From Aequorivita iocasae (GTDB lineage Bacteria > Bacteroidota > Bacteroidia > Flavobacteriales > Flavobacteriaceae), in contig NZ_CP068439.1 in the NCBI RefSeq assembly GCF_016757735.1, forward strand, positions 2,940,001 through 3,004,000: DNA of 64,000 bases, in the 5' to 3' direction. Positions 56,613 to 64,000 of the stretch are shown in pieces (within the stretch, counting starts at the first letter, position 1; the number at the start of each line of letters is the position of its first letter). Under the pieces are notes generated by a model. It searched no databases. It was not told the origin of the DNA and saw only the letters and a list, made by a program, of their open reading frames with translations. Position numbers and translations under genes: made by a program.

Positions 56613-56638
56613 TGTCAGTCTGAGCGCAGTCGAAGACC
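56613..56638. repeat. dispersed palindromic repeat, intergenic copy
   Basis: TGTCAGTCTGAGCGCAGTCG is followed by AAGACC: the core CTGAGCGCAGTCGAAG (56620-56635) is identical to the copy inside purL, and the GTCT/AGAC arms can pair. It lies in the 237-nt gap upstream of the RsmB-type gene, in a low-complexity stretch rich in AAATTCCAAAT-like and TTTCGTATTT-like repeats; a TACCTTTG -7 follows at 56743-56750. Confidence 0.85.
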
Positions 56639-56769
56639 CCAATTTCAAATCACAATCGTAAATTGTATTTCGTATTTCCTCATTTCATATTTCCAATTTT
56701 ACACGTATCTCCCATTTCGTATTTAGTAAATCAAAATTGTGATACCTTTGCAACCAATTAAACATAATA

Positions 56770-62212: not shown

Positions 62213-64000
62213 ATGATTCACTTTTTTGGCAACGTTCAAAACACTGTTTTTGCAGTCCAAACCCACGGAAATATTTCAGAAGAAAACACTAAAAAGTTGG
62301 AGTGGCTTTTCGGCAACCAACCTAAAATTGCAAAATCCGTCCTGTCCCCAAACGCGACGGATTTTTTTGTGGGGCCTCGTGCCGCAATGGTTACTCCGTG
62401 GAGTACCAATGCCGTGGAAATTACGCAAAATATGGGGATTGAGGGAATCATTCGTATCGAGGAGTTTCACAGCAATAAGGTTGAAAAAGGAACTTTTGAT
62501 CCTATGCTTTCGCAGAAATTTAGCCAATTGGATCAGGATATTTTCGATATCCACATCAAACCAGAGCCTATTTTGGAAATTGATGATATTTCAGAATATA
62601 ACCAAAAAGAAGGGTTGGCCCTAAATGCCGAGGAGGTTGAATACCTTGAAAATCTTTCAAAAAAACTAGACAGAAAACTTACCGATAGTGAAGTTTTTGG
62701 TTTCAGTCAAGTAAACAGTGAACATTGCCGCCATAAAATCTTTAACGGAACTTTTGAGATAGACGGTAAGGAAATGCCCTCCTCCCTATTCAAATTAATT
62801 AAAAAAACATCTGCCGAAAATCCGAACGACATTGTTTCGGCCTATAAAGACAACGTCGCTTTTATAAAAGGCCCAAAAGTGAAACAATGGTCGCCCAAAA
62901 GTGGCGACAAACCCGATTGGTACGAGGAAAAAGATTTTGAAAGTGTGATTTCCCTAAAAGCGGAAACCCACAACTTCCCAACAACCGTAGAGCCTTTTAA
63001 CGGTGCGGCCACCGGAAGCGGTGGTGAAATTCGCGACCGATTGGCTGGTGGAAAAGGATCTTTGCCCTTAGCGGGAACGGCCGTATATATGACTTCATAT
63101 TCACGATTGAATGAGGAAAGACCTTGGGAAAAAGGAATGAAAGAACGCGATTGGCTTTACCAAACGCCATTGGATATATTGATAAAAGCCAGTAATGGCG
63201 CTTCCGATTTCGGAAATAAATTCGGACAACCCTTAATTGCAGGTTCGGTGCTCACTTTTGAACATGATGAAAAACAGGATGTCACCCTGAGCGCAGTCGA
63301 AGGGTCTCGCAAGTTAGGATATGACAAAGTAATCATGCTCGCGGGCGGAATTGGCTACGGAAAAGCAAATCAAGCCATAAAAGGCAAACCCCAGGAAGGC
63401 AATAAAATTGTAGTCCTTGGGGGTGATAACTACCGCATCGGAATGGGTGGCGCCGCCGTTTCTTCCGCAGATACGGGAGAATTTCACAGCGGAATTGAAT
63501 TGAACGCAATACAAAGAAGTAACCCCGAAATGCAAAAACGTGCCGCAAACGCCATCCGCGCCATGGTGGAAAGTGATGAAAATCCAATCGTTTCCATTCA
63601 CGATCACGGCGCTGGCGGACACCTAAATTGCTTGAGCGAATTGGTGGAAGACACTGGCGGAAAAATTGATTTGGACAAACTCCCTATTGGCGACCCTACC
63701 CTTTCCGCAAAGGAAATTATGGGCAATGAAAGCCAAGAGCGCATGGGCTTGATAATTGGTGAGGAAAACATCCAGAAACTGAAGAAAGTTGCAGATCGCG
63801 AGCGTTCCCCAATGTATGAAGTGGGGAAAGTTACGGGCGACCAACGTTTCTGTTTCGAAAACGAAAATGGCGAAAAACCTATGGATTTCGCTTTGGAGGA
63901 TATGTTCGGCAGTTCTCCAAAAACCATAATGAAAGACAAAACCGTAAACAGAAATTATAAAAATGCTGATTACGAAGTTTCGAAAATAAAAGATTACGTT
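62213..64000 (+). CDS. purL: phosphoribosylformylglycinamidine synthase, large type (3' truncated by window)
   Basis: The frame from ATG 62213 (MIHFFGNVQNTVFAV) stays open to the right edge, giving the first ~596 residues of the ~1200-residue single-chain FGAR amidotransferase, the fourth step of purine synthesis. Seen: FFVGPRAAMVTPWSTNAVEI, FSQVNSEHCRHKIFNG, SLKAETHNFPTTVEPFNGAATGSGGEIRDRL and NPIVSIHDHGAGGHLNCLSELV, the ATP/substrate sites of the PurM-like halves. A TATCTTTG (62175-62182) precedes it. Between FEHDEK (about residue 354) and RKLGYDKVIMLAGG the protein carries an extra QDVTLSAVEGS-like stretch encoded by an inserted palindromic repeat. The glutaminase domain is beyond the window. 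Confidence 0.96.
   Translation, partial: MIHFFGNVQNTVFAVQTHGNISEENTKKLEWLFGNQPKIAKSVLSPNATDFFVGPRAAMVTPWSTNAVEITQNMGIEGIIRIEEFHSNKVEKGTFDPMLSQKFSQLDQDIFDIHIKPEPILEIDDISEYNQKEGLALNAEEVEYLENLSKKLDRKLTDSEVFGFSQVNSEHCRHKIFNGTFEIDGKEMPSSLFKLIKKTSAENPNDIVSAYKDNVAFIKGPKVKQWSPKSGDKPDWYEEKDFESVISLKAETHNFPTTVEPFNGAATGSGGEIRDRLAGGKGSLPLAGTAVYMTSYSRLNEERPWEKGMKERDWLYQTPLDILIKASNGASDFGNKFGQPLIAGSVLTFEHDEKQDVTLSAVEGSRKLGYDKVIMLAGGIGYGKANQAIKGKPQEGNKIVVLGGDNYRIGMGGAAVSSADTGEFHSGIELNAIQRSNPEMQKRAANAIRAMVESDENPIVSIHDHGAGGHLNCLSELVEDTGGKIDLDKLPIGDPTLSAKEIMGNESQERMGLIIGEENIQKLKKVADRERSPMYEVGKVTGDQRFCFENENGEKPMDFALEDMFGSSPKTIMKDKTVNRNYKNADYEVSKIKDYV
63281..63306. repeat. dispersed palindromic repeat inserted in purL coding sequence
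   Basis: GTCACCCTGAGCGCAGTCGA then AGGGTC: core CTGAGCGCAGTCGAAG (63287-63302) identical to the intergenic copy, here flanked by ACCCT/AGGGT arms that pair. Read in frame it encodes VTLSAVEGS. Confidence 0.9.

Follow-up and report, generated by a model that had tools for sequence, protein, structure and literature searches.

An in-frame palindromic repeat in purL, and re-use of PurL loops by different repeats in Aequorivita-type genomes

Short palindromic repeats that reside within protein genes and leave the reading frame intact have been described as Rickettsia palindromic elements (RPE), which occupy solvent-exposed places of the encoded proteins. According to the part of PMC3767692 used here, the size of an RPE is 100–150 bp (68–192 is given for the insertions of RPE-4/6/7), different RPE classes have been reported at one site, and both a 'hotspot' and a 'divergence of one insertion' are left possible as its origin. 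The other point of comparison is the REP sequences. In the sections of PMC3733652 and PMC8266576 that we draw on, the GTAG REPs with RAYT/TnpA-REP are described as 20–40 bp long, with an unpaired 5′ tetranucleotide and a hairpin, present in many copies and sometimes intragenic; in the E. coli group this hairpin has a bulge. The same part of PMC3733652 describes CGTC REPs, which occur in Bacteroidetes, often bear the tag TGTC, have no known dedicated transposase and are intragenic in some copies. It also reports different REPs at about the same site in recB of two Xanthomonas species. Two Flavobacterium species appear in a table of PMC12306157, and the word 'intragenic' is absent from the available text of that source.

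Here, we analysed a window of 64,000 nucleotides, corresponding to positions 2940001–3004000 of a single-contig 3.35-Mb chromosome rated 100% complete. Among the matches listed, the closest named relatives of this genome belong to Aequorivita (93% and 87%). The window ends within purL (Table 1), whose product carries in this part the Pfam domains FGAR-AT_N, FGAR-AT_linker and AIRS_C, and has phosphoribosylformylglycinamidine synthases as its top PDB matches (E 6.5e-100). The initial annotation had described a palindromic dispersed repeat lying in frame in this gene and adding the peptide VTLSAVEGS, and this description was confirmed: the purL open frame of 1260 aa is stop-free across the element, the inserted codons sit between LTFEHDEKQD and RKLGYDK, and the exact core is found 16 times in the whole chromosome. 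The element, TGTCACCCTGAGCGCAGTCGAAGGGTC, has 27 nt, is read as ..D-VTLSAVEG-S.. and is composed of a TGTCA head, an NN-CTGAGCGCAGTCGAAG-N'N' hairpin and a 2-nt tail. Its location had been given correctly, while the bounds, 63278–63309, had to be corrected to those of Table 1. The proposed 16-bp identity with an intergenic element at 56.6 kb was recovered exactly, the second core lying at 56620–56635 in a copy upstream of an ORF and outside PurL. The predicted structure of the window part of PurL is of low confidence (mean pLDDT 59.6).

Table 1. Positions of purL, the in-frame element and its intergenic copy within the window
Feature	Position	Strand	Basis and remarks
purL (phosphoribosylformylglycinamidine synthase), 5′ part	62213..64000	+	ORF list; start MIHFFGN; runs past the window end
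REP-type palindromic element in purL	63280..63306	+	covariance model 37.3 bits, E 4e-7; exact core
Nine added codons VTLSAVEGS, PurL loop 1	63281..63307	+	sequence and translation; loop without insert in 16/27 genus PurLs
16-bp core CTGAGCGCAGTCGAAG, also in the intergenic copy	63287..63302	+	exact match
Intergenic copy of the element	56613..56639	+	covariance model E 1.8e-6; outer stem GT/AC where the purL copy has CC/GG

The hairpin is backed by compensating changes, as in REPs. Of 223 distinct genus copies, 219 and 217 can form the first and the second pair beyond the core, with ~90 and ~125 expected from column composition, and the third pair shows no excess (82 formed, 94 expected). The covariation score of 49 aligned copies was 0.404 versus 0.090 after shuffling (0/500), and slid partners reached at most 0.081. 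From the covariation and the pair counts we therefore conclude that the element is a hairpin in which a GA bulge is conserved and whose TGTCA-type head is left unpaired; GTCA stands before the stem in 128 of the 223 copies. The stem has four outer pairs, the outer two of which vary, and two inner pairs past the GA bulge, and the 16-nt core includes a 6-nt loop. Single-copy RNA folding was no better than that of shuffled sequence (z −0.27 for the purL copy, 0.94 for the intergenic one), and it is covariation that supports the stem; the structured palindrome of the initial annotation is short and imperfect. Four of the six frames of the consensus are open by reading (VTLSAVEG, CHPERSRR, PFDCAQGD and PSTALRVT), and all four kinds of peptide are present in PurL. 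An Rfam scan of L016, L037 and L141 at E≤0.1 returned a single match, a sub-threshold Thr_leader in L141 at some other place than the repeats.

The repeat is dispersed in the genome and in the genus. The window contains the core at two places and none further at ≤2 mismatches (shuffle mean 0.00, 100 shuffles). Exactly the same two places are scored at E≤2 by the covariance model, which was trained on 49 other copies with both window copies left out. In the own genome the model gives 33 matches at E≤1, and the genome-wide count of the core that the initial annotation had recommended revealed a large excess, the 16 exact copies being joined at ≤3 mismatches by others to a total of 44, versus 7 for a reversed control pattern. 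Two core types were searched in the genus, CTGAGYTTGTCGAAG (a 24-nt unit counted from TGTCA) and CTGAGCGMAGTCGAAG (25 nt). All 28 genomes hold at least one of them, and the reversed control gave 0 in all 28 for both patterns. Copy numbers per genome are low, from a few to a few tens, and in its size and its many dispersed copies per genome the repeat agrees with the 20–40 bp REPs. The VTLSAVEG-bearing PurLs of two other species (G001 and G021) come with 41 and 25 copies of CTGAGCGMAGTCGAAG in their genomes, so the same residues were not found in species free of the repeat, which had been named as the finding that would speak against insertion. Separately, seven copies of the repeat are arranged in tandem at C1:2576993–2577259 of the own genome (L008–L012, L024), with a period of 40 bp and a CAACAAATCTGTCACA-like spacer between them.

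The element works like the Rickettsia palindromic elements, with a different repeat and in Bacteroidota. Similarly to RPE and the Wolbachia WPE, it is an in-frame palindrome in conserved protein genes; unlike RPE, its unit is 24–27 nt and it is found in Bacteroidota; the comparison is with published descriptions of RPE. It differs from the GTAG REPs in its head, which is TGTCA here, and GTAG is absent from the 12 commonest heads of the 223 copies. The tag is that of the CGTC REPs, with TGTC in 127 of 223 copies and CGTC in 3; however, the 8–9 bp stem starting with two AT pairs and the 4–5 nt loop of that class are not seen here. The literature text searched gave no match to six core strings of the repeat, and among the matches listed, no title or abstract opening described repeats in PurL or the presence of this repeat within genes of Flavobacteriaceae.

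PurL sites are occupied recurrently within the genus. A PurL match was obtained in 27 of the 28 genomes, and loop 1 (LTFEH to LGYDK) could be read in all 27: it is empty in 16, holds the REP in 7 and holds a GC-rich palindrome of an unrelated family in 4 (G012, G019, G025 and G026; L077, L087, L079 and L074). The REPs of loop 1 lie in both orientations and in three frames. They are in plus orientation and read VTLSAVEG in G000, G001 and G021, and are in minus orientation in G027, G011 and G002, where they are read as FDKLS, and in G003, where the reading is PSTNSGT. Over the loop 1 stretch, G027, G011 and G002 are each exactly 24 nt longer than an empty relative. The GC-rich palindrome is of the CCCCCTCCGGCTCCCC..GGGGGAG kind and is read as APSGSPKGGE-like peptides; a similar PSKGGE occurs in the linker of other species. 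In loop 2 (SYSRLNE..RPWEK), a core-like sequence with 1–2 mismatches is present in 6/27 members (G001, G009, G015, G020, G021 and G023). The FGAM-synthase/GATase linker, located before the glutaminase domain, is readable in 26 members (not G019). Ten of these have a core-like sequence there, within 4 mismatches of the cores tested, and the window's own genome, past the window end, is one of the ten. A nested state is seen in the linker of G021, in which a contiguous 24-nt REP interrupts an older REP that G014 has whole. The linker of G013 likewise shows a 24-nt difference from that of G014, with an opposite-strand core in that stretch. The element matches in PurL of the own genome and of the genus contain no stops and their frames are open, which supports the earlier claim that the element can enter coding sequence without breaking the frame. 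Since the same loops are filled in relatives by various repeats, in different orientations and frames, we conclude that the PurL loops act as a recurrent landing site for this and other repeats. This re-use, missed by the initial annotation, is the more interesting fact. As in the Xanthomonas recB case, one gene site is used by different REPs, but that case concerns two species, whereas here a series of empty, filled, reversed and nested states is seen in 27.

Beyond the genus, 80 named purL loci were taken as the best 80 of 596 matches to a query containing the insert. The covariance model (E≤2) found 12 places in these loci, 11 of them in PurL, all at the three sites and in 9 of the 80 loci. 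By length, this makes 11 matches in 296 kb of PurL versus 1 in the other 313 kb (609 kb in total), the sole match outside PurL being in L116 (E 0.0033). Of the 11 PurL matches, eight reach E≤0.023, and the other three (E 0.26, 0.52 and 1.4) are weak on their own. One locus, L155, holds repeats at all three PurL sites. Its contig (JAADHG010000237.1) is labelled Chlorobiota, its PurL is 82% identical to the query, and it is perhaps a misbinned Flavobacteriaceae contig. In a family sample of 129 genomes, nearly all of different genera, the PurL query had matches in 127, and in 27 of those, own genome included, the match was split or carried at least 5 extra residues over the segment from loop 2 to loop 1, as judged by match length. 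Forty purL genes were taken: 26 from this group of 27, 13 without insert and one whose match was truncated. The core was found at ≤2 mismatches in four (L386, L398, L402 and L405), and the four model matches in the 40 genes were weak (E 0.07–1.5; L402, L386 and L398). To be set beside the CGTC REPs is another repeat, longer and of the CGTCATTGCGA type, which lies in frame in the PurL linker of other genera (L141, L144, L383 and L392) and is read as IANEVKQS...PRNDR-like peptides; L144 has CATC, in the form CATCATTGCGA.

Many longer loops of other genera cannot be recognised as products of repeats. A test with shuffled residue order and random synonymous codons did not support decayed repeats as the source of every long loop-1 variant in the family (e.g. 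NSASSTSKARK): a clear match to a core was seen for 10 of 43 distinct loops, and p<0.05 for 3 of the remaining 33. The DNA of a peptide look-alike, NDLTFNAVEGS in L112, does not stand out either (p 0.35). In the solved PurL (1t3t group), which we take to be that of Salmonella, the corresponding loop exceeds the empty loop of the genus in length, so that the short loop initially expected at this place is only partly borne out. With the core in 4 of the 40 genes taken, loop length varies for other reasons as well.

Across Aequorivita-type genomes, copies of the repeat are mostly outside gene interiors. In a set of 146 distinct copies of the 24-nt type (from 150 matches) and 78 of the 25-nt type (a partial sample), 28 and 6, respectively, lie well inside ORFs of at least 200 aa (34/224). 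A repeat-made ORF (L277) accounts for two of the 28, so that 32 remain. The preference of the 24-nt type for ORF interiors (Fisher p 0.03) is only a hint, because copies share ancestry, the 25-nt set is a partial sample and two of the 28 are doubtful. Host genes of in-frame REPs include metG, argS, leuS, metH, mfd, mnmE and trpF, and further interior copies are hosted by genes for a methylmalonyl-CoA mutase small subunit, a GSCFA protein, an FAD oxidoreductase, an S66 peptidase and a GT87-like protein. Of the interior copies, purL hosts 4 among the 28 and 2 among the 6; the former number would be very unlikely by length alone (Poisson 6e-8), under a null that ignores that only tolerated insertions survive and that counts descent-shared copies (argS) apart. 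In metG, one place is used by different repeat readings. The metG genes of G006, G011, G014, G021 and G023 (L255, L290, L298, L332 and L228) carry repeat-derived segments at two places, in frames that differ by species (GHAELVEALSWND, NVTLSPSTSLRTGSVEGSIKWND). The leuS gene of G002 (L341) has, besides an in-frame repeat, a DUF559-like stretch within the open frame.

As for the mover, Y1_Tnp (PF01797) has no match in the own genome, and matches are present in 19 of the 28 genus genomes. A copy of the repeat (≤2 mismatches) occurs in 5 of 20 Y1_Tnp loci examined, and is exact in 2. Unlike in a GTAG REPtron, where repeats flank the transposase gene, the copies show no regular link to these Y1_Tnp loci. 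A RAYT as the mover was rejected on the same counts: the own genome is devoid of Y1_Tnp matches, as are G010 and G024, yet each of the latter has 21 copies, and only 5 of the 20 loci contain one.

The reading that we consider very probable is that of a REP-like element whose selfish or passive insertion is filtered by selection to tolerant loops, and in which loops with filler, the PurL sites among them, are re-used. The 24–27-nt element has been copied into many places of Aequorivita-type genomes, perhaps by a Y1/HuH transposase acting in trans or by another single-strand mechanism, and it may be 'mobile-like'. Insertion would be widespread and selection would purge gene-breaking copies, leaving survivors in loops that tolerate a change of length. 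A loop that already contains filler may then accept more insertions, including a repeat inside a repeat. The added peptide is most likely tolerated filler.

A stronger version, which we hold only tentatively, sees true hot spots of integration in the PurL loops of Flavobacteriaceae: the mover would favour these loops and later the repeats within them, and the exact 24-nt unit of eight codons with four of six open frames would suit coding sequence. If this is true, loops of housekeeping enzymes are rewritten again and again by a selfish element that is compatible with coding.

The origin of the inserts was assessed on a gene tree of PurL (32 sequences, built without the three variable sites) that has 12 open forks. 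Loop 1 needs 10 state changes for the 10 insert-bearing rows of 26 genus members, and the count is the same whether scored in five states or as present/absent (the partial G019 is absent from it). Three starred sister pairs are split in loop 1 occupancy, namely G027/G004 (100/96), G021/G008 (100/100) and G002/G013 (100/100). With groups defined by the insert after the tree had been seen, forcing the VTLSAVEG carriers (G000, G001 and G021) into one clade was rejected (p-AU 1e-10), as was joining G027 with G011 (p-AU 0.018), while one clade of the GC-rich trio was not rejected (p-AU 0.079). For most carriers, hotspot use is distinguishable from divergence by the empty sister sites and the opposite orientations.

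These data also bear on the unlikely alternative of one ancient insertion, inherited vertically and lost or diverged in many species, with gene conversion by genomic copies keeping some inserts identical. The VTLSAVEG trio agrees with it: 30 nt around the repeat are identical in genes that are 80–83% identical, the flanking codons beyond the repeat are shared (EKxD...S), as descent of one allele would give, and codons and frame correspond to those of HDExxD-VTLSAVEGS-like loops of other genera (L120, L188 and L386). The part of the Rickettsia japonica paper used here leans the same way for RPE-4/6/7, with hotspots kept possible (PMC3767692). However, elements in loop 1 are also reversed, read in other frames or drawn from an unrelated family, and empty sites occur in well-supported sister pairs. 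The explanation may still apply to the VTLSAVEG subset alone. For these carriers, repeated insertion, conversion of an old insert and a very short exchange are each possible.

Exchange of short purL segments between species by homologous recombination, which would spread a few insert alleles while insertion itself is rare, seems quite improbable. It would explain why species that fall apart on the tree share identical inserts, as in the two rejected clades above. However, in the pairs compared, the 60-nt blocks flanking the insert are no closer between carriers than the whole gene (G000/G001, 0.82 and 0.77 vs 0.822; G027/G011, 0.85 and 0.88 vs 0.834), so any tract that was transferred must have spanned hardly more than the repeat itself.

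Retention of the peptide for a role in PurL, e.g. in subunit contacts or regulation, we regard as very improbable: the insert is in frame in several species, but unrelated peptides occupy the same place, 16 of the 27 genus members are without any, and REP-derived peptides are also found in unrelated enzymes. Short as the core is, chance similarity was rejected, with 0 copies expected from shuffles, and a sequencing or assembly artefact can practically be dismissed for a single-contig genome with other species alike.

Our preferred reading of selection-filtered insertion into tolerant loops concerns palindromes of a kind that, in protein-coding sequence, is best known from Rickettsia and Wolbachia, where, in the part of PMC3767692 used here, the choice between a hot spot and a diverged single insertion is left open. 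In Aequorivita-type genomes, close relatives display empty, filled, reversed, foreign and nested states in one enzyme, so the hot-spot question becomes accessible to ordinary comparative data. Short repeats can lengthen the loops of housekeeping enzymes with the frame kept open, in PurL as well as in methionyl-, arginyl- and leucyl-tRNA synthetases, MetH and Mfd.
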